Part shown: piece after piece, positions 19,118 through 37,297 of the stretch
How the letters are laid out: every line of letters starts with the position of its first letter
Numbering within the stretch: the first letter of the stretch is position 1
From: Methylomonas koyamae
Lineage (GTDB): Bacteria > Pseudomonadota > Gammaproteobacteria > Methylococcales > Methylomonadaceae
Length of the DNA: 64,000 nucleotides
Assembly (NCBI RefSeq): GCF_006483455.1
Contig: NZ_PPPU01000005.1
Coordinates: forward strand, 1-64,000
Direction: 5' to 3'
Position numbers and translations under genes: made by a program
Notes under the pieces: model-generated
Database searches by the model: none
Told to the model about the DNA's origin: nothing
What the model saw: only the letters and a program-made list of their open reading frames with translations

Positions 19118-20458
19118 TTATTCCAGGCCGAGTTTCTTCAAGCGGTAACGCAATGAGCGGAAACTCATCCCCAAATATTTGGCTGTCGCCGTTTTGTTCC
19201 AGCGGTTTTCTTCCAGGGCCGAACTCAATGCCTTTTTCTCGATATCTTCCAAATAGCTTTCCAGCGACATTTTTTCGGCATTGAAATCTTCGGCCACAGC
19301 CAAATCCAAGCCCATCGGTAAATTCAGATCGTCCACCTGAATCACGCCGCCCTCGTGCAACGCCAGAGCTCGCTCCAGAATATTTTCCAACTCGCGGACG
19401 TTGCCGGGAAAATAATATTGCTTCAACGCGCTGAGCGCCGCATCGGATAACTCCGGCTTGGCAATGCCGTTGTTACGGGCCAAGCCTTGCAACAGATGTG
19501 CGGTCAATTGCGGAATATCGGCCGCCCGCGCCCTTAACGGCGGCAAACTCAACTCGATCACATTGATCCGGTAATACAAGTCCTGCCGAAAACTGCCTTC
19601 CTGGACCATTTTGGCTAAATCCCGGTGGGTGGCACTCAGCAGGCGCACATCCACCGGAATCTCGAGTTGCTCGCCAATCGGCCGGATTTTCTTTTCTTGT
19701 ATCGCTCTCAGTAATTTGACTTGCAGCGCCAACGGCAAATCGGCCACTTCGTCCAAAAACAGGGTGCCGCCGTCCGCAGCTTGGAACAAGCCCTGCTTGT
19801 CGCTGACCGCCCCGGTAAAACTGCCTTTTTTATGGCCGAAGAACTCGCTTTCCATCAATTCATGCGGGATCGCACCGCAGTTAATCGCGACAAATGCCTT
19901 ATCGCTACGGGGGCTTTGCTGATGGATCAACCGCGCCACCAACTCCTTGCCGGAGCCGGATTCGCCGCTGATATATACCGGCGCCTGATTGCGCGCGACC
20001 TTATCGATCTTCGAGCGGATATTGCGCATTGGCATCGATTCGCCGAGTAACAAATCACGAGTGCGACGTTCTTTTTCCGCCACCCGGTTCAACGAGATCT
20101 GCAAGGCATGACTGACCAACTGCCGCAACACCGCCAGATCGACCGGTTTCGACAGAAAATCGAAAGCGCCTTTTTTCATGGCCTTGATCGCAACATCCAT
20201 ACTGCCGTGGGCCGTAATCACCGCCACCGGCAATTGCAAACCTTGGCTCTGGATGTAATCGACCAGTTCCAGACCGTCGCCATCCGGCAAGCGCATGTCG
20301 GTCAGACATAAATCGAAAGATCGGCTGGTTAACCAATGCTTGGCTTCGGCTAGCGTCGCCGCGCAGCAGGTTTGGATTTGCATCCGGTTTAGCGTGATCT
20401 CCAATAACTCCCGAATATCGGGTTCGTCATCAACCAACAAAGTAACAGGCATATTCAT
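19118..20458 (-). CDS. pilR: Type IV pilus response regulator PilR-like (sigma-54 activator)
   Basis: 446 residues: receiver (1-120, Asp10-Asp11 pair, phosphoacceptor Asp54 in LTDMRLPDG, Lys in FLSKPVD), AAA+ domain (about 135-370, Walker A GESGSGKE, sigma-54 loop GSFTGA, the serine variant seen in PilR, and LFLDEVADL), and Fis-type helix-turn-helix (NKTATAKYLGMSFRSLRYRLKK). PilR activates sigma-54 transcription of the major pilin gene. It overlaps the kinase gene by 4 bases (ATGA). No pilin gene is in the window, so the pilus role follows from the family and from pairing with a PilS-type kinase. Confidence 0.9.
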   Translation of the reverse strand: MNMPVTLLVDDEPDIRELLEITLNRMQIQTCCAATLAEAKHWLTSRSFDLCLTDMRLPDGDGLELVDYIQSQGLQLPVAVITAHGSMDVAIKAMKKGAFDFLSKPVDLAVLRQLVSHALQISLNRVAEKERRTRDLLLGESMPMRNIRSKIDKVARNQAPVYISGESGSGKELVARLIHQQSPRSDKAFVAINCGAIPHELMESEFFGHKKGSFTGAVSDKQGLFQAADGGTLFLDEVADLPLALQVKLLRAIQEKKIRPIGEQLEIPVDVRLLSATHRDLAKMVQEGSFRQDLYYRINVIELSLPPLRARAADIPQLTAHLLQGLARNNGIAKPELSDAALSALKQYYFPGNVRELENILERALALHEGGVIQVDDLNLPMGLDLAVAEDFNAEKMSLESYLEDIEKKALSSALEENRWNKTATAKYLGMSFRSLRYRLKKLGLE

Positions 20459-22077
20459 ATTTCAATCGCCGCGCGATCGGCGTTCGCCAATAACAAGGTA
20501 AAACAGGATTTTTCGCCGGGGGCGTAATACAACTCCGCCCGATTCAATTCGGCCAATTCCCTGGAGATATAGAGCCCTAGCCCGGTACCCTGGTGAGACG
20601 TGGTGAAAAACGGTTCGAACAGATGCTGTAGGTTGTCGGCATTTATCCCCGGACCGTTGTCGATGACGCTGATGTAAGGCGAGCCCTGAGCCATGCCCGC
20701 TTCGATCATCAGCGGTCCAGCTTCCGGGCGGCCATACTTCAGCGCGTTGGCGCACAGATTATCCAGAATCTGTTTCAAATGCCCGCCGTCGATGTATGCG
20801 CCCAGGCCTTGGGCTTTAAACGACACATTAAATGTGTCTTCTTTCAGCCCCAGATTCAGCCGTTGCTCGCTCAAGTAGGCCGGCAGCCACTGGTCCAGCG
20901 CAATTGTCTGCTTATGCGAGGGCGTCCGCCGCGACAGCTTGAGAATATCCTCGATAATACCATTCACCCGCTGGCAATGAACCCGGACGATTTCGGTTAA
21001 GCGCAAATCCTGGGCCTCCAGGGCGCGGGACTCGGCCAGCAATTGGCCGGCATGACTGATAGCCGCTAGCGGGTTGCGGATTTCGTGGGCGATACTGGCC
21101 GTCAGTCGACCCAAAGAAGCCAGTTTGCTTTGTTGCAGGCGCTGGTTGTACAAGGCGATGTCTTCGAAAATCAGCATATTCAAGGTTTCGCCGTCCATCA
21201 GCAGTGCCGAGAACCGGACTTGAATTTCACTTCGATCGGGCAAAGACACGATGGCAAAATCCTGTTCCCGGTGTTCGCGCCACAACTCGAAAGCCTGTTG
21301 CAATTGCGGCGAGATGTCGGCCAATGTGGCTGGCTGCCGTTCCAGCCCCAATAAGCGCAATGCCGACTGGTTGGATAACTGGGTCGCCTCACCGTCGTCG
21401 ACAATCATGATGCCGGATTGTAAATGCTGAATGATGTAGCGGTTCAAGCTTTCCAGCCGGGCGATGGTCTGCGCGTGGCGTTGCGCCAGAATCGCGGCCT
21501 GCTCGGCCCGCTGCGCCATTATCACCGACAGAAAAGCGATCGAAAAGAACGCCACGCCAAGCATGCCGGCATAGGTGAGCGTGGTAGTTTCAAACGCCCG
21601 AGTCTGAATCGCATACACTTCTTCGGTCAGAATCGCCACACTCGCCAACGCGGCAAACAAGATCGCACACCGCCCGCCGACCAACAGCCCGCCGGCCGCA
21701 ATCGAAATCGCCAGCAAGATGCCAATGCCGCTACCGACCCCGCCGCTGGCATGCATCATCAGCGTAATCAATACGATATCGGTAAAAATAAACAGTTGGG
21801 CCAATCTGGCGTAACCCAAACGCTGTCGAAATGCGATTGGCGCGGCAATCAGCGAAATCGCCAAATAAGCCAAACTGGCGAACTGGTACAATGCGGTGTC
21901 GTAAGAGCCGAGTAGGGACGGACCGAAACGCAAATAAAACAGCATTGCGAACAGGCTGGCGGTTACGAAACGGTACAAGGCAAAGATTTTCAGCATCAGC
22001 CAAGCCTGCAGACTGGGAATACCGTAACCTTTGGAAAAGGGACAGGGGTATAAAGTATCGGCCGCTGGCATTCGCAT
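20455..22077 (-). CDS. pilS: Type IV pilus sensor kinase PilS-like
   Basis: 540 residues from ATG at 22077. The N-terminal half has six predicted membrane helices (about 30-205), as in PilS, without a large periplasmic domain. A PAS domain (about 225-325) follows, then the dimerisation domain with SIAHEIRNPLAAI and an ATPase domain (NLCANALKYG, DNGPGI, GTGLGLYISREL). It would phosphorylate PilR. The frame is open to a TTG at 22122, but the ATG is preferred; no strong ribosome-binding site is visible. Divergent from sucC with about 100 bases between. Confidence 0.9.
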   Translation of the reverse strand: MRMPAADTLYPCPFSKGYGIPSLQAWLMLKIFALYRFVTASLFAMLFYLRFGPSLLGSYDTALYQFASLAYLAISLIAAPIAFRQRLGYARLAQLFIFTDIVLITLMMHASGGVGSGIGILLAISIAAGGLLVGGRCAILFAALASVAILTEEVYAIQTRAFETTTLTYAGMLGVAFFSIAFLSVIMAQRAEQAAILAQRHAQTIARLESLNRYIIQHLQSGIMIVDDGEATQLSNQSALRLLGLERQPATLADISPQLQQAFELWREHREQDFAIVSLPDRSEIQVRFSALLMDGETLNMLIFEDIALYNQRLQQSKLASLGRLTASIAHEIRNPLAAISHAGQLLAESRALEAQDLRLTEIVRVHCQRVNGIIEDILKLSRRTPSHKQTIALDQWLPAYLSEQRLNLGLKEDTFNVSFKAQGLGAYIDGGHLKQILDNLCANALKYGRPEAGPLMIEAGMAQGSPYISVIDNGPGINADNLQHLFEPFFTTSHQGTGLGLYISRELAELNRAELYYAPGEKSCFTLLLANADRAAIEI

Positions 22078-22175
22078 TGCCCGTCGTTTTTTCAGGAGTT
22101 GGTTAAAATTAGCGTCCGGCAATCATAGCACCAACTCGAAACGCCGCGATGCCCGCCTCAATATGGAGCACCTAG

Positions 22176-27336: not shown

Positions 27337-29424
27337 ATGCCAGATCACCTGTTCGACATTCACCCGTACATGCCGCACGGCCAATGTTATATGTGGCAAA
27401 GCGATCTGCTGATGCTGCACGTGGTGTCCGACGCGCTAATCGTTTTGTCTTATTACTCGATCCCGTTCGCACTGCTCTACATCCTGAAAAAGCGCCTGGA
27501 CATTCCGTTCAGCTGGATTTACTGGCTGTTCGGCCTGTTCATCTTTCTATGCGGCACGACCCACTTGCTCAGCATCTGGAATGTCTGGATACCGGACTAT
27601 TGGCTGTCCGGTTTCGTCAAACTGGCAACGGCAATGGTTTCGATCAGCACAGCCGCGTTAGTTTGGCCGTTGGTTCCGAAAATCCTGGCTATCCCCAGCC
27701 AAGCGCAATTGGTCGCGGCAAATTCGGCACTGGCCAGGGAGATCGAGAATCACAAAAACACCGAACGCGAGCTGCGCAAACTCACCCTGGCGATGCAATA
27801 CAGCTCCAGCATGGTGATGGTCACCGATGCGCAAACCCAAATCGAATATTGCAATCCCGCCTTCTACCAGATTACCGGCTACACGGCGGACGAAGTGATC
27901 GGGCGCCGAGCCAATCTGCTGAAGTCAGACCTGACCGCCGAAGACACCTACAAGAATCTTTGGACCACCCTGTTGAGCGGCACCGCCTGGCACGGCGAAT
28001 TTTTGAACCGTAAGAAAAACGGCGAACTGTTTTGGTGCCTGGAATCGATCGCCCCGATCCTGGCCGACGACAACTCGATCAGCCATTTCGTTTCCATCAT
28101 TCACGACATCAGCGACCGCAAGGATACCGAGGAAATCATTCGCCATATGGCGTACTACGACCCGTTGACCGATCTGGCCAACCGCTCGCTGTTCAACGAA
28201 CGGCTCGAACAAGCCATCCACCTGGCCAAGCGCAATCCGCAGATCTTTGCGCTGTTCTATCTGGACCTGGACCGTTTCAAAAACATTAACGATACCCTGG
28301 GGCATTTGGTCGGCGACAAATTGCTGATCGAAGTCGGGAAACGAATTGCGGCCTGCTTGCGCCAGCAAGAAACCGTCGCCCGCCTCGGCGGCGACGAATT
28401 CGCGCTGATCAGTTTGAATCTCACCAGTCCCGCCGACGCCGGCGATATCGCCCAACGCGTGATCAACACCATCAACGAGCCGTATTTCATCGACGACCAT
28501 CAATTGTTCGTCGGCACCAGCCTCGGTATCAGCGTGTATCCGCAGGACGCCAACACCAGCGAACAATTGCTGAAACACGCCGACGACGCACTGTATCTGG
28601 CAAAACAGCACGGCCGTAACACCTTCGAATTCTACAACGCCGCGTCCAACGCCTTATCCCTGCGCCGACTGAACCTGGAAAACCATTTGCGCCACGGCCT
28701 GGCCCGCAACGAATTCTCGCTGGTCTACCAACCTCAAGTCGATCTGGCCAGCGGCAGCATCATCGGCTCGGAGGTATTACTACGCTGGACGCCGGCAATC
28801 GGCGCCGTCGGTCCGGACGAATTCATCCCGATCGCCGAGAACAGCGGCTTAATCGTCGAAATCGGCGAATGGGTCATACGCACCGCCTGCCGCGACTATA
28901 TGTGTTCACCGTTGCGGGAGCGCCATTTGTTTTTGGCTATCAATTTGTCGGCGCGGCAGTTCAAGAAAACTTCACTGGTCGACAGTGTGGGCGACATTTT
29001 GCGCGAAACGGGTTTTCCGGCCGAACGCCTGGAACTGGAAATTACCGAGAGCATGCTGGTGGACGACATCGAGACCGCCATCAAGCACATGCAAGACTTG
29101 AAAAACCTCGGCATTCGTCTGGCGATCGACGATTTCGGCACGGGCTTTTCGTCACTCAGTTATTTGAAACGGTTTCCGGTAGACACGCTGAAAATCGACA
29201 AATCCTTCGTCGCCGACATTTACGACAACCAGAACGACGCCTGCATCGTGCGCTCGATCATCGGCTTGGGGCACGGCTTGAATCTGAAAGTCCAAGCCGA
29301 AGGCGTCGAAACCGAGCAACAATTGACCTTATTGAAGCAGAACAACTGCGACCGCGGCCAGGGCTATTTCTTCCACAAGCCGCTGCCGATAGACGAATTT
29401 CGCCGGCTGTTCGCCCGGTTTTAA
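27337..29424 (+). CDS. Ethylene-receptor-like membrane GGDEF/EAL protein
   Basis: 695 residues. The first 115 form three membrane helices that align without gaps, at a constant +7 offset, to the ethylene-binding domain of plant ETR1: Asp32, Tyr39, Ile42, Pro43, Ile69, Cys72 and His76 correspond to ETR1 Asp25, Tyr32, Ile35, Pro36, Ile62, Cys65 and His69. Cys and His bind the copper cofactor in ETR1. Then follow a coiled coil, a PAS domain (about 148-265), GGDEF domain (intact RLGGDEF at 349-355) and EAL domain (Glu479 in EVLLRW, NLSARQF, DDFGTGFSS, EGVETE). It likely links a small ligand to cyclic-di-GMP turnover. ATG at 27337 is chosen; the frame opens upstream at a non-ATG codon. Confidence 0.88.
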   Translation: MPDHLFDIHPYMPHGQCYMWQSDLLMLHVVSDALIVLSYYSIPFALLYILKKRLDIPFSWIYWLFGLFIFLCGTTHLLSIWNVWIPDYWLSGFVKLATAMVSISTAALVWPLVPKILAIPSQAQLVAANSALAREIENHKNTERELRKLTLAMQYSSSMVMVTDAQTQIEYCNPAFYQITGYTADEVIGRRANLLKSDLTAEDTYKNLWTTLLSGTAWHGEFLNRKKNGELFWCLESIAPILADDNSISHFVSIIHDISDRKDTEEIIRHMAYYDPLTDLANRSLFNERLEQAIHLAKRNPQIFALFYLDLDRFKNINDTLGHLVGDKLLIEVGKRIAACLRQQETVARLGGDEFALISLNLTSPADAGDIAQRVINTINEPYFIDDHQLFVGTSLGISVYPQDANTSEQLLKHADDALYLAKQHGRNTFEFYNAASNALSLRRLNLENHLRHGLARNEFSLVYQPQVDLASGSIIGSEVLLRWTPAIGAVGPDEFIPIAENSGLIVEIGEWVIRTACRDYMCSPLRERHLFLAINLSARQFKKTSLVDSVGDILRETGFPAERLELEITESMLVDDIETAIKHMQDLKNLGIRLAIDDFGTGFSSLSYLKRFPVDTLKIDKSFVADIYDNQNDACIVRSIIGLGHGLNLKVQAEGVETEQQLTLLKQNNCDRGQGYFFHKPLPIDEFRRLFARF

Positions 29425-29454: not shown

Positions 29455-32400
29455 TTATCCGTTACGGCAGCGGTAAGGCCCCAGCGGATCGGCGCCCAAA
29501 GTACCGACCAGCGATTTCAAATACTCCGGACCCGACACTTGCTGCAGTTTGCGTTGCGCTTGCTGCAATCGTTCCGCCAGCTTCAATTGGCCGACCATGG
29601 CCTGATGACTGTTGTCGCGTAAAAATCCCTCCAGATAGCCGACGTGGCGCCGCCACAAAGCCATTTCCCGCTGCTGTTTGAGTTCCAGCCGCTCATGGTA
29701 CCAATCCGCCGCCAGCAGATACTCGCGGCTAAACATGGCTCTGATCTCCGGATGGTGAGCGTCCTTACCTTCGTAATGGCCGAGCGCCATGATGTGCAGC
29801 AGCGCATACAACGGCGGGCAGGCGTCTTCGATGCTGCCGTCGTCCAGATATTGCTGGGCCACCCGCTGCTGAGTCTCGACGATGTTGTTGACGCCGTCGA
29901 CGAACACCTCCAGGTCTTGCCGCTCCGGTTGCAGGATCTCGTCGGTGAACACCGCGTAAGGATTGTCGAAGATCTTGCCCATCAGGCTATGCACGAAATG
30001 GCTGGTGATGCGGTAGCCGAGCCGGCTGGCCATGACCAGTTGACCTTTGTACTCAAAATCGGTCAACGGCTCCAGGTAACCGTGTTGCAACAGGTAATCG
30101 GCTTCGCGTTCCTGCCGCGACAAGCGGGCCCAGATTTCCGGAATCAACAAGCTGATGTCGTGGTCGACCCGGGTGTCGGGCCCGATATGACCGGCCGAGC
30201 TGGAAAACCCCGGATAGCCGGTCAGGATATAAGACACCAAGGTGTTGTTCAGGTCGGTGATGCCGCGCAAGGCGTTGAACGGGCCTTTGGTCAGCGCGCC
30301 CTCGCTGCCGGCGCCGGTGGTCGACGGCGACTTGCCGGTCAGCGAGCTGATGAAGTCCATGAACAGCTCCGGCAACTCCTGGTAATGAATCGGGTTGTAC
30401 ACCGCCAGCGGCCGGATTCCAGGCTCGGGCGGATTGTTGCGCCGGCCGGTCAGCACCGCATCGACCGGATGGCACAAGGGCTGATTCAGCGGAATCTTCC
30501 GGTGCAGGCGGGCCCCGACTTCGGCGACATATTTACGCAGCGGCTTGACCACATCGACCCGGGTTTCCAGGTAGCGCGGATTTTTCGAGGGTTTGCCATC
30601 CACCAAACGCGGATGCGCGGAAGACACGACAAAGCCCTTGCCGTCCTGATAGGCATCGCTCAACAGGTTTTGCATCGGCGGGGTAAATTTGGAGAAGGTC
30701 ATCACGTCTTCGACCACCGCGGCCAGTTTTGCCGGATCCAACGGCTCGAAATTAGCCATGAAATTGCCGGGGCCGGACATGTTGGCTTCGGTCTGCTTGT
30801 CGTAGCCGGGGATGATCGCATCGTCCGGCCGCTGAAACAGCCGGTATTCGCAGTTGGTGACCAGTTTCAAGCTCATCTGGTAACCGGTATCCGGTAACCA
30901 CGGCTGTACTGACGTGGTCGGTACCACCACCGAGGCGCTGATATCGTCTTCCATCTGCACTTTCTCGCAGGCGATGTAGTCCTGGCGAACTTTAAACGTA
31001 CGCCAGCCGCCTTCGGCGTCGAAACCGACCCGCAAATAGGTGGCGACGATCTTCCGCTGGTTCAGTTTCAGCTCGTGGCCCGGCGCACCGTCGATGACAT
31101 CCACCGACAAATGGTCACGCCAGTGTTCGCCCCACTCCTCGCGGTAAAAACGTTTGATCAGGAACACCAACGCCAGAATGCTGGGCGGAATCGATTTCAG
31201 CCAGTTGTTGAACTCCGGGGTGTGATAACTGGACGGCGTCAATAATTTGATCACCGAGCCCAGGCTGCGCTCCGGACTCAGAATCTTGCGGGCCGAATCG
31301 CGATCTTCGTGCTCGTAGCCCGGCAGGAAGCGGCCGGTGTAATCCTTGTCGAAAATCGCCTGCACCCGGTCCAGATCGTGCTGCAAGTCGTCGACGAACA
31401 ACGGCCCGTAAATCACCGCATCCTCGATGGATTTGGAAATTTCCGACTTGCCGCCGCCGGACACGGTACACGGCTTGTGGCAAAAGGTACCTTCGGCGAC
31501 GGTACCGATCAACCGCCAGGACGGCGCGCCGGGGTGCTTGCACATCTCGATCTTATAGCCGTTGGGCTGCACGTAAATCTTGCCCGGTTGCAGCCGGATG
31601 CTATGGCTCTGGCCGTTTCTGATCCAGGTGATTTTCTGGTTGTTCAGGCTCATCCGCAGGTCTTGCGGCACGTAAATGATGTCCGGATATTGCTTGTCGA
31701 TGGCGTAGCCTTCCGGCTGCATGTCCATGATGGCGCCGTAACGATAAACCATGTCGTCGAAATCATAGCCCGGCTCGCGGGTCAGGCTACCGATGCCGAA
31801 TTCGTCGCCGTGGTTGAAGCGGCGGAAGGCCAGCGCGCCGCCGGCATGCTCCTCCTCGGCCAAACCGAACAGATTGGCGGCATAGCTGATTTGGGTTTTC
31901 ACTTCCTTTTTGCAGTAGCCGTAATAGTTGTCGGCGACGAGCGTGACAATGACGCCGGAACGATCGCGGGCGGTCAGTTTAAAGGCCTGGCCGTCGTTAT
32001 ACAGTTCGGCCGGGTTCTGCCAACACATGCCTTCGGCGCGCTGGCGTTCGCTGGCATCATCCCAGTGCGGCAAGCCCAACTGTTTTTTGGTGAGCTTGAC
32101 CAGATGCGGCGCCAGAATCACGCAGCCGCTGTGGCCGGACCAATGTTCGACGTCCAGCGCCGCGTCGCATTCCGGCAAGGCCGGATTGCCGCCGTTGCCG
32201 AAAATACTCTCGACGAAATCGAGGTTGCTGACCAGATTTCCAGGGGCGAAAAAACGGATTTCCATCGATTTTTCGGCTGCAACGCCAGGGATTTCCGGGC
32301 AAACCACCGGCCGCAACAGCAAGGAGGCGAACATGCGCGCCGGCTGGGGTTGATTGGCGGTAAACGGCAGGGTCAGCAAGTCTGGCGGCGGATTCAGAGC

Positions 32401-32931
32401 TTCGGCCAGCATCAAGGCGAAGGTCAGCTTCGGTACCTGTTTTTTGTCGCCGGGCACCGGCAAACCGCCTTCGGCGATATGAAACGAGCCTTGGGTGGTA
32501 CGGCGGTCGCTGGCCGGATTATGCAACACCCCCTGTTTGACGCGGAAACTGGACACGATTTCGGAACGGAATTCGTCTTCGCCCATCGGCAACGACAATT
32601 CTCGCGCTACGCCGTGGCGGTCCAGCTCGAAGGTCATGGTCGGCAACGACGGCACCTTGTCCAGACCGACATCGCCGCAGTAACGGTCGAGAAAATCCTG
32701 GATCCGGCGGTCGGCCGGATACAACGAGGAGCTGGCCAATTGCCGGCTTTTTTCCAGGTAGCTGTTCAATAAATCCTGAGCGGTATCCATGAATTGGGCC
32801 GACGCGTGATCAATACATGCCGGCTGGCCGCAGGATGCCAGTTTTAAATTGATGTAAAGATGCAATTGGCGTTTCACCGCCTGCTCGTCTTGACCGGCGG
32901 GTCCCAGACCCAGCGCTCTGAGTTTATCCAT
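29455..32931 (-). CDS. Probable PPi-type phosphoenolpyruvate carboxykinase
   Basis: 1158 residues from ATG 32931, which has AAGGGGGAGG 2 bases upstream. The size and motifs fit, from memory, the diphosphate-dependent PEP carboxykinases of Propionibacterium and Entamoeba (about 1100-1150 residues): TVSGGGKSEISKSI (K495), DNYYGYCKKEVKTQISYAAN (split: DNYYGYCKKEV, KTQISYAAN), GKSPSTTGAGSEGALTK (about 865), RRNNPPEPGIRPL and SSAGHIGPDTRVDHDISLLIPE (in parts). The reaction would be oxaloacetate plus PPi to PEP, CO2 and Pi, or the reverse. ATP- and GTP-type PEPCKs are about half this size. It is convergent with the preceding GGDEF/EAL gene. The family call rests on recognition, not a search. Confidence 0.7.
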   Translation of the reverse strand: MDKLRALGLGPAGQDEQAVKRQLHLYINLKLASCGQPACIDHASAQFMDTAQDLLNSYLEKSRQLASSSLYPADRRIQDFLDRYCGDVGLDKVPSLPTMTFELDRHGVARELSLPMGEDEFRSEIVSSFRVKQGVLHNPASDRRTTQGSFHIAEGGLPVPGDKKQVPKLTFALMLAEALNPPPDLLTLPFTANQPQPARMFASLLLRPVVCPEIPGVAAEKSMEIRFFAPGNLVSNLDFVESIFGNGGNPALPECDAALDVEHWSGHSGCVILAPHLVKLTKKQLGLPHWDDASERQRAEGMCWQNPAELYNDGQAFKLTARDRSGVIVTLVADNYYGYCKKEVKTQISYAANLFGLAEEEHAGGALAFRRFNHGDEFGIGSLTREPGYDFDDMVYRYGAIMDMQPEGYAIDKQYPDIIYVPQDLRMSLNNQKITWIRNGQSHSIRLQPGKIYVQPNGYKIEMCKHPGAPSWRLIGTVAEGTFCHKPCTVSGGGKSEISKSIEDAVIYGPLFVDDLQHDLDRVQAIFDKDYTGRFLPGYEHEDRDSARKILSPERSLGSVIKLLTPSSYHTPEFNNWLKSIPPSILALVFLIKRFYREEWGEHWRDHLSVDVIDGAPGHELKLNQRKIVATYLRVGFDAEGGWRTFKVRQDYIACEKVQMEDDISASVVVPTTSVQPWLPDTGYQMSLKLVTNCEYRLFQRPDDAIIPGYDKQTEANMSGPGNFMANFEPLDPAKLAAVVEDVMTFSKFTPPMQNLLSDAYQDGKGFVVSSAHPRLVDGKPSKNPRYLETRVDVVKPLRKYVAEVGARLHRKIPLNQPLCHPVDAVLTGRRNNPPEPGIRPLAVYNPIHYQELPELFMDFISSLTGKSPSTTGAGSEGALTKGPFNALRGITDLNNTLVSYILTGYPGFSSSAGHIGPDTRVDHDISLLIPEIWARLSRQEREADYLLQHGYLEPLTDFEYKGQLVMASRLGYRITSHFVHSLMGKIFDNPYAVFTDEILQPERQDLEVFVDGVNNIVETQQRVAQQYLDDGSIEDACPPLYALLHIMALGHYEGKDAHHPEIRAMFSREYLLAADWYHERLELKQQREMALWRRHVGYLEGFLRDNSHQAMVGQLKLAERLQQAQRKLQQVSGPEYLKSLVGTLGADPLGPYRCRNG

Positions 32932-33273
32932 AGCCTCCCCCTTGGAATTTTTTAATTGATGGTAGCGGCATGATATAGCAAACCCCAAGCCGAGGTCAGC
33001 AAGCTATCGGCGGTCGTCATCCGCCTCCCGGCAAAACGCCTTACGGCGGCCGAACCTAGGCCGATTTGGCTCGCAGCCGAATATTTTGACTCGCATAAAA
33101 CTGCGTGATTTGCCGATGCAATTGAGTCATTTAACTTAGATTAATTATTCCGCCTGCACTTTTCTGCCGCCTGATCCGCCTGCGGCCTTGAAAACCGGCA
33201 CCTATACCGGCGCGGCTCGACTGGCAAATTAATTGCTTCAATCTAACTCCATCTGTTCTCACCGGAGCCCGTC
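32932..33273. other. Divergent promoter region between PEPCK-like gene and ECF sigma gene
   Basis: 342 bases with no gene. The right half has AT-rich stretches (33085-33150), including TTGACT near 33090 and TTAACTTAGATTAATTATT near 33132, where promoters for the sigma factor could lie. No clear Fur box is visible. A weak ORF on the minus strand (33131-33313) has no ribosome-binding site and was not accepted. Confidence 0.5.
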
Positions 33274-33789
33274 TTGTCCGCTGCCGCCATTCCCGCCGAT
33301 CAGGTTGCCGCACTATTCCGCGACCATAAGGAAGCGATCGTGCATTTTCTGTTACAGCGCGTCAAATGCCCCGACACGGCACAGGACTTGAGCCAGGAAA
33401 CCTATTTACGCCTGTTGCGGAAAGACGGGCTGGTCCATACCGACAACCTGAGCGGTTACCTGTTCCGCACCGCCGAGCGGCTGGCAATCGATTTCGTCCG
33501 CCACAACCAGCGCCACAGCGCCCGCCAAGAGCCGTTAGCGGAAGACGCCCTTTGCCCGCTGCCGCAACCGGAGGACGCCGCAATCGTCACTCAGCGTTAC
33601 CGCCGGGTACTGGAAGCGATCGCCGCCTTGCCGGCGCAATGCCGCCACATATTGTTGCTACGCAAGGTAGACGAACTCGGTTACCGCGAAATTGCCGATC
33701 GGCTGGGCGTATCCGAAAAAACCGTACAGCGCCAGTTGGTCAAAGCGATGCTGCATTGCCACCAATATTGCCTGGACATGTTGCCTTAG
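33274..33789 (+). CDS. FecI-type ECF sigma factor
   Basis: 171 residues starting at TTG, with GGAG 6-7 bases upstream. Region 2 (about 10-80) has DLSQETYLRLLR and the promoter-melting stretch GYLFRTAERLAIDFVRHNQR (in parts: GYLFRTAERLA, IDFVRHNQR). Region 4 (about 108-165) has LPAQCRHILLLRKVDELGYREIA (in parts) and the recognition helix RLGVSEKTVQRQLVKAM. This group directs transcription of TonB-dependent receptor genes after an outer-membrane signal. It is followed by FecR and a receptor with an STN domain, a complete FecIRA set. Confidence 0.92.
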   Translation: MSAAAIPADQVAALFRDHKEAIVHFLLQRVKCPDTAQDLSQETYLRLLRKDGLVHTDNLSGYLFRTAERLAIDFVRHNQRHSARQEPLAEDALCPLPQPEDAAIVTQRYRRVLEAIAALPAQCRHILLLRKVDELGYREIADRLGVSEKTVQRQLVKAMLHCHQYCLDMLP

Positions 33790-33880
33790 CACCCCACGAC
33801 CGATACGTCTCAACTCTTGTTTAGCAAAACCGGCTAAACTGACTAAGAGTTAACTCCGTTGACTAACCTGGTACCACCCG

Positions 33881-34834
33881 ATGTCATCAACCTCGCCCTC
33901 GCAACGCACTCTGAGGCAGGCCACGACTTGGTTCGTAGCGCTGCAATCAGAGCATGTCGCCGCCGCAGAACGCCAGCAATTCGAGCAATGGCTGGCGGCA
34001 AGTGCGGAGCATCGCCGCGCCTTTTGCGAAGTCGAACAAGTTTGGGGCAATCTGGACACGCTGAAGTCGCAAGACTTGGCGGAATTGAACCAGGCCAGAT
34101 CGGTTCGTCCGCAACGATGGCACCATAGCCGGCAACTCTTGTCCGGGATATTACTGGCGACGGTACTCGGCGGAGCATGGCAGGAATTCTCCACACCAAC
34201 CACTACTTACCAAACCGGAATCGGCGAACGCCGCACATTGGCGCTGGCGGACGGCTCGCGCTTGGAAATGAACACCGCTACTCGCCTGCGAACCCGCATA
34301 TCCTGGTTACGCCGAGATATCGAACTGGAGCAAGGCGAAGCGGTATTCGAGGTCGCCCACGAGCGCTGGCGTCCGTTTCGGGTCCATGCCGGGAAACTGC
34401 ACATTAGCGATATCGGCACGCTGTTCAATGTCCGCCATCAGGATGCCGACGGCACCTCCGTTGCGGTGTTGGAAGGGGAAGTGGAAATGCGGGTCGGCAG
34501 CCGTTGGCTGGGAGAACCATTGCGCGCCGGATTCAGCCGCCGCCTCGATCCGGAGGGACACTGGCAGAGGCAGGAAAAAGTCGACGCCGAACCGGTTTTG
34601 GCCTGGACCCGCGGCCAGTTATTATTCGACCACACGCCGCTAGCCGACGTAATCAAAGAACTAGAACGCTACCATAGCCTTCACTTCGTGCTCGCCGACG
34701 CGTCGCTCGGCCGACAAACCCTAAGCGGACGTTTCGACGCCACCGATCTCCAGCCGTTTCTACAGGCCGTGCAAAGCATATTGCCGCTACGGGTACAACG
34801 CAGTAAAGACACTATCGTACTGCACAAACACTAA
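33881..34834 (+). CDS. FecR-type anti-sigma/sigma regulator
   Basis: 317 residues. The cytoplasmic N-terminal domain (1-85, TTWFVALQSEHVAAAERQQFEQWLA in parts: ERQQFEQWLA) carries the typical WxxxLxS-style FecR segment. One membrane helix at about 86-103 (LLSGILLATVLGGAW) is followed by the periplasmic FecR domain (about 110-240, with GERRTLALADGSRLEMNTAT and ELEQGEAVFEV) and a C-terminal STN-like part that contacts the receptor. It relays receptor occupancy to the sigma factor encoded 91 bases upstream. Confidence 0.93.
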   Translation: MSSTSPSQRTLRQATTWFVALQSEHVAAAERQQFEQWLAASAEHRRAFCEVEQVWGNLDTLKSQDLAELNQARSVRPQRWHHSRQLLSGILLATVLGGAWQEFSTPTTTYQTGIGERRTLALADGSRLEMNTATRLRTRISWLRRDIELEQGEAVFEVAHERWRPFRVHAGKLHISDIGTLFNVRHQDADGTSVAVLEGEVEMRVGSRWLGEPLRAGFSRRLDPEGHWQRQEKVDAEPVLAWTRGQLLFDHTPLADVIKELERYHSLHFVLADASLGRQTLSGRFDATDLQPFLQAVQSILPLRVQRSKDTIVLHKH

Positions 34835-34960
34835 GCGCAGCCGCTACGCGGAACTCCCCCGAACCAATTTTTTTCGGCAAAACTGTCCAGTTTCCTTGTT
34901 CTGCTTCGTTATGAACGGTATGCCCAGGCACAGGTCTGGCCAACCTTCATAAATCAGGAG

Positions 34961-37297
34961 ATGAAAATGACTCTATCAAGCAGTCCAACTGACCGGCAGC
35001 GCAGCGGACGCCGCATCGTTTTGCCGATGCTGGCCCTGTCTCTGGCAATCGCCGGCAATACCTGGGCCGGCGCAGCCGTATCGAGCAAACTCGATCTGCC
35101 GGCCCAAAGCCTCGCCGCCAGCCTGGACAGTTTGGCAAAGACCAGCGGCGCCAAATTGATCTACGCCGACTCGATCGTCAACGGCATTCAAGCCGATGCG
35201 CTGCGCGGCGAATTCACCGTACAGCAAGCGCTGGACCGGTTGCTGCATAAACACGGGCTGCAGTCGGAGATTGTCGGCGGCGTGATTACCATCAAGAAGG
35301 CCCCACCGGCGCCGAAACCGCAAGCCATCCGCGACGATTCGATCATCTCGCTCGGCGAAGTTACGGTCAACGAACAGCCGGACAACGGCAAATTGACTAG
35401 CAAGGACATCGCGACATCAGTCGACATCATGTACGCCGACAAGATCGCCGACCAGAACGTATTGACCGCATTCGACTTAATGCATCGGATGCCGGGCATC
35501 CAAATCACCCAATTCGGCCAAGGCACCACCACCGGCAAATTTTCCTTCCGCGGCTTCAATGGAGAGGGCAATATCAATGCCGTCAAGCTATTGATCGATG
35601 GCATCCCCAGCAACACCAATGACGGTAACATGCCGTTTATCGACGCGTTATTTCCGCTGGACATCGAATCGATAGAAGTCGTGCGGGGTACCAACGACCC
35701 GCGCTATGGCCTGCATAACATCGCCGGCAACGTCAACATGACCACCACCACCGGTGGTAATTATGTCAAAGGCCGAGTTAGCTACGGCAGTTTCGATACT
35801 CACGATATTCAATCCGGATTGGGTTATGAAAAGGACGGTTTCTCGCAAAACTACCAGGTTTCGTACCGTGCTAGCGACGGTTATCGCGATCACAGCGACA
35901 CCGACAAAAACAGCTTTTCCGGGAAATGGTTCTATACCCCTGAGGACAAAAAATACAAAGTCGGTTTGATAGCTCGCTGGAGCGAAGCCGACGCCCAAGA
36001 ACCCGGCTACCTCACCTACCAAGAACAATATGCCAATCCTGAGCAATCGATGCCCCGAAACGCTACCGACGGCGGCAAACGCCAATTGGGCCAAGTCAGC
36101 GCGCACCTGGATATCAACTTAACCGATCAGTTGTTTTGGTCGACTAAAGGCTATAGCAATACGTTTGAAGATCAACGATTTGTGAAATTTTACGGCAATA
36201 GCCCCACATCACCTTTTCAGCAAGAACGCACTACCGAAGAAGTACAGTATGGCGCGATGACCTCGCTGACCTACCACCCGCAAATTTCCTGGTTAAACGA
36301 TTTTTCCCTGGAAGGCGGTTTCGATTTTCAACAACAAGAAAACAAGTCGCTACGTTTCACCACAATCAATACAGTCAGAAGAGCCCAAACTAGAGATCAG
36401 AACTTTAATTTCTTGGTTTACGGCGGCTATCTGCAAGCCGTGATAAAACCAACTGCATGGTTAAAAATCACTCCTGGTTATCGGGCAGATCAGATTGACG
36501 GTAGTTTCATCAACCGAATGGAGGGCAGTACAGCAAATGTCAACGATTACGGCACGATTTCACAGCCAAAAATCGGCGCAGTGATCACCCCGATCGATGG
36601 TTACAGTCTTTACGGTAACTGGGGACGTACTTTCCAAGTAGGGGTAGGCGCCGCCACCTACAAAATTGCACGGGGAGCTACTGACATTGCGCCATCAATC
36701 AACGAAGGCTGGGAGGTCGGTGTCAAACTTAAACCTGTCGACTGGGCGGAGGCTCGTGTCGCTTACTGGCGACAAGACGCAACCAACGAGTCCAGCCGAG
36801 TTTTAAACAGCGCCCAAAATGATTCCATATCCATTGGCTCCACCGAACGCCAAGGAGTCGACCTGGAATTCAAAATCAGCCCAATCGAACCGGTCAACAT
36901 TTGGGCAGCTTATTCATTACAAGAAGCTATCGTTACCAAAGCTCCCAACGCTAGTTACCGAATCGGCAACCAGATCATCAACACGCCAGATTACTTATTC
37001 TCTGCGGGCCTGGATTACCAGATCACTCGGCAGATCAGGTCATCACTGTGGACTACTGGCCAGGGAGACTATTACATCGATCCGCAAAACAATTTGGATA
37101 ATTTTGGCGAATATGCCACTCTCAACCTGGACCTTGGATACCAAGTTACCAAAGAAGTTGACTTACAGTTCCAAGTCAAAAACTTGGCAGATGTTAATCG
37201 TGAATACGTGTGGTACGACGCTACGGGCGGAGCGCTGTACTCACCTGGCGACGGTCGCGCTTTCTACGGCGCAGTCAGTGTCAAGTTCGACTACTAA
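34961..37297 (+). CDS. FecA-like TonB-dependent receptor with STN signalling domain
   Basis: 778 residues: signal peptide (to about 36, GNTWA), STN domain (about 45-95, LPAQSLAASLDSLAKTSGAK), plug domain (about 130-260, with FRGFNGEGNINAVKLLIDG and VVRGTNDPRYGLHNIAGNVN) and a 22-strand barrel ending in the aromatic SVKFDY. It imports a metal chelate and signals through FecR and FecI upstream. The substrate is unknown; siderophore-iron, or a copper chelate of methanobactin type, are candidates by family. AGGAGATGAAA precedes the start. The barrel half is much more AT-rich than the plug half, noted under findings. Confidence 0.92.
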   Translation: MKMTLSSSPTDRQRSGRRIVLPMLALSLAIAGNTWAGAAVSSKLDLPAQSLAASLDSLAKTSGAKLIYADSIVNGIQADALRGEFTVQQALDRLLHKHGLQSEIVGGVITIKKAPPAPKPQAIRDDSIISLGEVTVNEQPDNGKLTSKDIATSVDIMYADKIADQNVLTAFDLMHRMPGIQITQFGQGTTTGKFSFRGFNGEGNINAVKLLIDGIPSNTNDGNMPFIDALFPLDIESIEVVRGTNDPRYGLHNIAGNVNMTTTTGGNYVKGRVSYGSFDTHDIQSGLGYEKDGFSQNYQVSYRASDGYRDHSDTDKNSFSGKWFYTPEDKKYKVGLIARWSEADAQEPGYLTYQEQYANPEQSMPRNATDGGKRQLGQVSAHLDINLTDQLFWSTKGYSNTFEDQRFVKFYGNSPTSPFQQERTTEEVQYGAMTSLTYHPQISWLNDFSLEGGFDFQQQENKSLRFTTINTVRRAQTRDQNFNFLVYGGYLQAVIKPTAWLKITPGYRADQIDGSFINRMEGSTANVNDYGTISQPKIGAVITPIDGYSLYGNWGRTFQVGVGAATYKIARGATDIAPSINEGWEVGVKLKPVDWAEARVAYWRQDATNESSRVLNSAQNDSISIGSTERQGVDLEFKISPIEPVNIWAAYSLQEAIVTKAPNASYRIGNQIINTPDYLFSAGLDYQITRQIRSSLWTTGQGDYYIDPQNNLDNFGEYATLNLDLGYQVTKEVDLQFQVKNLADVNREYVWYDATGGALYSPGDGRAFYGAVSVKFDY

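Follow-up and report, generated by a model that had tools for sequence, protein, structure and literature searches.

Here we describe P0001, a protein encoded in a window of 64,000 nucleotides of the Methylomonas koyamae genome (contig NZ_PPPU01000005.1), in which an ethylene-binding domain (EBD) of the plant receptor type is joined to a PAS domain and to the GGDEF and EAL domains of cyclic-di-GMP (c-di-GMP) metabolism (Table 1). Judged by its domains, ligand residues and catalytic residues and by their conservation and distribution, all of which are evident in the sequences compared here, P0001 is probably a diguanylate cyclase controlled by ethylene through Cu(I), with an opposing phosphodiesterase in the same polypeptide. 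The mechanism that we infer extends to copper, ethylene as the ligand, coupling to the cyclase and not the phosphodiesterase, the direction of the response and the physiological role. The three N-terminal helices would bind Cu(I) via C72 and H76, which D32 would position, and ethylene would bind to this copper; this would shift helix 3, and the shift would be passed on by the helix at 122-149 to the PAS domain, whose signal would alter the cyclase activity of the GGDEF domain, with the EAL domain clearing c-di-GMP. P0001 would serve as a sensor of ethylene, a gas that becomes toxic epoxyethane when methane monooxygenase co-oxidises it, and its output would change attachment or motility.

Table 1. 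Features of the P0001 gene and protein; positions are those of the window
Feature	Position	Strand	Remarks
P0001 gene, EBD-PAS-GGDEF-EAL	27337..29424	+	695 aa; ATG 27337, TAA 29424
Motif P13-H14-G-x-C17-Y-x-W20, N-terminal to helix 1	27373..27396	+	typical of bacterial EBDs
Ethylene-binding domain (EBD; Pfam ETR1_N, PF25487)	27406..27693	+	residues 24-119
Ligand residues D32, Y39, I42, P43, I69, C72, H76	27430..27564	+	
Predicted helix 122-149, linking helix 3 with the PAS domain	27700..27783	+	AlphaFold2
PAS domain (PAS_9)	27811..28116	+	residues 159-260; Pfam
GGDEF domain	28150..28620	+	residues 272-428; Pfam, E=2.7e-50; RLGGDEF intact, RxxE for RxxD
EAL domain	28681..29382	+	residues 449-682; Pfam, E=7.6e-71; motif EVL; ENEEDDKEQ intact

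The identity of the sensory domain is confirmed by sequence comparison. The initial annotation had proposed a profile search against bacterial ethylene-binding domains and had named the lack of a significant match to ETR1-type domains as counterevidence; the search returned a highly significant match to ETR1_N (129.1 bits against a curated cut-off of 27, E=7.6e-38), and since none of 14 control genomes matched this model, chance is excluded for the EBD of P0001. The seven ETR1 ligand residues that had been claimed at a constant offset of +7 are likewise all present; Y32, I35, P36 and I62 are what we take to be four of these positions in ETR1. The others are D25, C65 and H69 in the published ETR1 numbering, which also includes K91, the residue aligned there with K98 of the Azospirillum brasilense receptor AzoEtr1 (PMC11819568). 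K95 of P0001 aligns with AzoEtr1 K98 as well. An AlphaFold2 model of residues 1-150, built on 57 aligned rows, has helices at 22-52, 59-84, 89-118 and 122-149 with a mean pLDDT of 87.5 (below 50 at residues 1-3 and 13-16), and the EBD is predicted to insert in the membrane with three transmembrane helices, as in ETR1-type domains. Solved structures gave no match to the EBD by profile at E<=1 or, by fold, at E<=0.001 among the 104 matches listed. The start of the gene at 27337 is supported by the orthologues L078 and L079, whose stop-to-stop frames are just 699 aa long.

The closest functional anchor is AzoEtr1, an EBD-PAS-histidine kinase that has the ligand residues, the PHGxC motif and the PAS domain after the EBD in common with P0001, whereas its output runs through a histidine kinase and a response regulator and that of P0001 through GGDEF and EAL domains in one chain. 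In a translated plasmid search, Azospirillum records ranked first. The locus of A. brasilense Sp7 (L321) encodes a protein starting MFGGVEAF, in agreement with the published AzoEtr1 cloning primer, and its D35, C75, H79 and K98 sit at the AzoEtr1 positions as numbered in the same paper (PMC11819568). P0001 and AzoEtr1 are identical at 76 of 141 residues with no gaps (54%), and residues 1-130 of AzoEtr1 conferred saturable ethylene binding in yeast (PMC11819568); ethylene binding by P0001 is expected chiefly on the strength of this likeness. Another bacterial EBD ethylene receptor of this kind, SynEtr1/UirS (Slr1212) of Synechocystis, affects motility and differs from P0001 in being also a UV-A photoreceptor and in its two-component kinase output (PMC5812497). 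The EBD of Methylomonas sp. SURF-1 is 91% identical to that of P0001.

Among 135 EBDs the residues of the P-H-G-x-C-x-x-W motif are found in large majority (P in 131, H in 126, G in 128, C in 126 and W in 128), and the motif, with its H14 and C17, might mark a copper-entry or second copper site in bacterial EBDs; to our knowledge, it is absent from plant ETR1. Copper supply governs which methane monooxygenase methanotrophs use, and it is conceivable, if quite unlikely, that the EBD is a sensor of copper (Cu(I)) or a general small-molecule sensor (of CO, acetylene or other alkenes) and not an ethylene receptor. The counterpart ligand set of ETR1 does bind copper, and the conserved H14/C17 pair could aid copper loading. 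However, the same PHGxC motif occurs in the ethylene-binding AzoEtr1, families of the order that carry pmoA (f6 and f7) have no EBD, and ETR1, SynEtr1 and AzoEtr1, all the functionally tested EBDs mentioned in the portions of the literature available, bind ethylene (PMC11819568, PMC5812497).

The enzymatic half of the protein agrees with the fusion to PAS, an intact RLGGDEF and EAL described in the initial annotation, both in its Pfam domains and in the catalytic positions scored. Neither HisKA nor HATPase has a Pfam match in P0001, and GGDEF and EAL stand in their place. All eight GGDEF active-site positions scored (DND and GGDEF) are intact, with GGDEF at 351-355 within RLGGDEF at 349-355; at the EAL motif (479-481) the sequence is EVL, and the nine EAL positions ENEEDDKEQ, presumably the catalytic ones, are intact and align to MorA without exception. 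An RxxE product-inhibition site is shared by P0001, its nine orthologues from the Methylomonas group and L088; most other frames that were scored have RxxD.

The orthologue search covered 301 genomes of the order, with at most three candidates scored per genome at E<=1e-150. Orthologues of P0001 were found in 12 other genomes, nine of the same species or genus and three of other genera, with 53-98% identity over almost the full length; the alignment scored for one of them (in G011) includes a TGA, although the 707-aa frame there has all four domains. All 12 retain K95 and PHGxC together with the full set of seven ligand residues (which is thus complete in 13 of 13 with P0001). EBD identity exceeds that of the EAL domain in 12 of 12 orthologues and that of the PAS domain in 11, being equal in one, and equals or exceeds that of the GGDEF domain in 11 of 12. 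A reading in which the EBD has become a mere relic that anchors the protein in the membrane, with sensing left to the PAS domain that is also present, is very improbable: the EBD is the best conserved domain in most orthologues, and it falls below the other domains (28-31% identity) only in L092 and L093. These two relatives, from two related genomes (G029 and G067), are 45-46% identical to P0001 and are the only ones with a diverged EBD; it is without PHGxC, Y39 and I69 and retains D32, I42, P43, C72, H76 and K95, so that it looks diverged rather than clearly dead. Their GGDEF motif reads GDDEF, and their EAL domain is complete.

These relatives bear also on the direction of the output. RbdA and MorA of Pseudomonas are PAS-GGDEF-EAL enzymes in which a regulatory GGDEF domain controls the EAL domain. 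By analogy, the same ethylene receptor might have c-di-GMP breakdown as its net output, with a mainly regulatory, GTP-binding GGDEF domain and ethylene controlling the EAL phosphodiesterase, and MorA and RbdA (PA0861), which unlike P0001 have no EBD, are indeed the best PDB sequence matches to its GGDEF-EAL half (4rnh, 5xgb), the nearest solved structures being MorA and other GGDEF-EAL proteins. The intact EAL positions of P0001 and its RxxE, a departure from the usual product-inhibition site, fit this scheme as well. We nevertheless consider it rather unlikely in view of the fate of the EAL domain. In three related orthologues of the Methylomonas genus (L080-L082; genomes G173, G155 and G074) its catalytic residues are lost, KIDKSF being replaced by IIAPAF or TIPPAF and AEGVE by AKGVE, with DDFG changed to NNFG in two of them; in a further relative, L185, an EAL domain is undetectable; and all four proteins keep the EBD and the GGDEF domain. 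The EAL domain has been lost twice in the family, while an intact EBD and an intact GGDEF domain occur together in 14 of 14 members (P0001, its 12 orthologues and L185). Joint retention or joint drift of sensor and GGDEF domain, seen in about three events, suggests that the EBD controls the cyclase, as in the mechanism that we prefer. Genome G029 has both L185 (intact EBD and GGDEF, no EAL) and L092 (diverged EBD, GDDEF, intact EAL), a possible division of the two enzyme functions between a pair of genes.

The fusion of an EBD to c-di-GMP domains had been taken as unusual in the initial annotation, a view that does not hold within the order Methylococcales. Output classes were assigned with phmmer, using P0001 and the window domains as queries, to 97 EBD frames of the order, namely 15 chosen relatives of P0001 (itself included), L224, L225 and 80 frames from the upper part of the score ranking, which under-samples lower-scoring EBDs. 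Of these, 48 have GGDEF and EAL domains and four only GGDEF, a histidine kinase is present in 41, and four have neither; with the 15 chosen relatives set aside (n=82), there are 37 c-di-GMP proteins, 41 kinases and four unclassified. None of 38 EBD frames from outside the order, taken from the class and phylum draws, has GGDEF; 28 are kinases and 10 are unclassified. A search of named loci, with six EBDs as the query, five of them of the c-di-GMP type, found GGDEF in 18 of 80, that is in all 11 from Methylococcales and in seven others (one Noviherbaspirillum, two deltaproteobacterial MAGs and four cyanobacteria). EBD-GGDEF-EAL proteins of Methylobacter, Methyloglobulus, Nostoc, Noviherbaspirillum and the deltaproteobacterial MAGs share the fusion with P0001 and differ from it in length and PAS number (the named-locus frames span 612-1499 aa), and several of their EBDs fall elsewhere in the tree.

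In a tree of 162 EBDs, P0001 belongs to a weakly supported group (SH-aLRT 84) of 26, in which 23 are of the c-di-GMP type, three unclassified and none a kinase. A single origin of the fusion is not supported, as nine changes between kinase and c-di-GMP output were counted on this poorly resolved tree of 118 columns; its well supported branches force at least three changes of the c-di-GMP label. Several other loci deserve mention. L203 (143 aa) and L188 (203 aa) are short open frames with little besides the EBD, possibly stand-alone ethylene-binding proteins. L333 (G1091) has EBD, GGDEF and EAL in one frame, and its family includes a genome rich in AMO-family genes and perhaps ammonia oxidisers. 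In L334, a GGDEF domain is in frame with an EBD whose Asp is replaced by Asn.

The chromosomal neighbourhood was rejected as a functional clue. P0001 has pilR-pilS, sucC-sucD-nadE and two genes that lack a Pfam match as its neighbours in 8 of 14 orthologue regions, every one of them from the window's genus; these genes are missing in the other six, one of which (G115) is of that genus too, a pattern that reflects descent, not function. The two Pfam-less genes (no match at E<=1e-5) encode 1177 aa (29455-32988, minus strand), with 83-99% identity in the eight regions, and 374 aa just 5' of P0001 (25872-26996, plus strand), present in the same eight. The window also contains a gene for a PilS-like histidine kinase (6TM_PilS) with one for an NtrC-type regulator (19118-22122, minus strand), apparently pilS-pilR of type IV pili, and a surface-signalling uptake set of an ECF sigma factor, a FecR-like protein and a TonB receptor with an STN domain (33274-37297, plus strand).

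The genome as a whole (4.54 Mb in 89 contigs) has 78 places that match P0001 at E<=0.001, mostly in GGDEF, EAL or PAS regions, which points to a large c-di-GMP network. Its second EBD gene encodes an EBD-HisKA-HATPase-REC protein of 590 aa (L240:9926-12720, contig C2), with Tyr where P0001 has I42, and 23 bases downstream lies a gene for a REC-HD protein whose sequence resembles HD-GYP, so that c-di-GMP may be the target of both EBD proteins. A neighbouring HD-GYP gene was rejected as a rule for EBD kinases, the one in this genome being the only case among 117 kinase-type loci; any GGDEF, EAL or HD-GYP neighbour was seen at 8 of the 117, many of which have short flanking stretches.

The supposition that the host is a methanotroph is borne out by two pmoA/amoA-family genes in the genome and by Methylomonas as the nearest named relatives. 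Of 301 genomes of the order, 152 have an ETR1_N match above the cut-off, all of them from families f1 and f4 and none from the pmoA-bearing f6 and f7. The class draw gave 15 of 370 genomes, four of them in the order, leaving about 11 of 365 elsewhere (an approximate denominator, order members among the misses being uncounted), and the phylum draw 31 of 397, of which two belong to the order. A distant genus that carries pmoA, with the AMO family in 28 of 32 genomes, has an EBD in 14 of 39, and at 8 of 8 loci examined it feeds kinases, not c-di-GMP. The enrichment is marked (order, Fisher p=2e-50; distant genus, 3e-6; descriptive values only, as the genomes share ancestry), and from these sequence counts ethylene sensors look unusually common in methanotrophs. 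Methanotrophy does not require the sensor, because f6, f7 and half of the genomes drawn have no EBD. As a general marker of copper monooxygenases the EBD is not supported: in the family of the AMO-rich genome G582, which has three AMO-family genes, it was found in 4 of 51 genomes (p=0.10 versus the class draw).

The connection between ethylene and methanotrophy drawn in the initial annotation has independent support. Ethylene strongly inhibits a methanotroph, in which its co-oxidation by pMMO yields toxic epoxyethane, and 3-50 ppmv of ethylene inhibited methane oxidation in forest soils (PMC11507031). An epoxide-removal cluster is present in about 10% of methanotroph genomes; in Methylohalobius a MEDS-domain regulator was predicted, the gene for which is missing from the clusters of other methanotrophs (PMC11507031, 2024), and a term search of the main text of that paper does not return the word 'receptor'. 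Ethylene receptors of methanotrophs are not evident among the papers listed, nor was a bench test of an EBD-c-di-GMP fusion found in the literature searched. A description of an EBD-GGDEF protein was likewise not found there, the available portions of PMC5812497, PMC11819568 and PMC4686702 included. The putative EBD-c-di-GMP receptors are widespread, prominent in methanotrophs and unstudied in the literature searched. A sensor of ethylene would suit this physiology, and biofilm or motility is affected by the kinase-type receptors AzoEtr1 (PMC11819568) and SynEtr1 (PMC5812497).

A broader proposal, which we put forward tentatively and would sooner doubt than assert, is that the methanotroph guild relies on ethylene receptors of the plant type to be warned early of an alkene that its own monooxygenase converts to epoxyethane, that many of the gammaproteobacterial receptors are themselves diguanylate cyclases, and that c-di-GMP is the target of both EBD receptors of the present genome, directly for P0001 and via the REC-HD gene for the second one. 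If our reading of P0001 is true, a single protein would link a gaseous plant hormone to the chief messenger of biofilm formation and motility in bacteria, with a direct enzymatic read-out for EBD signalling that is missing in the plant pathway. The setting is that of bacteria limiting methane release from wetlands and rice fields, and the protein would offer a testable answer to the question of how methanotrophs notice ethylene.
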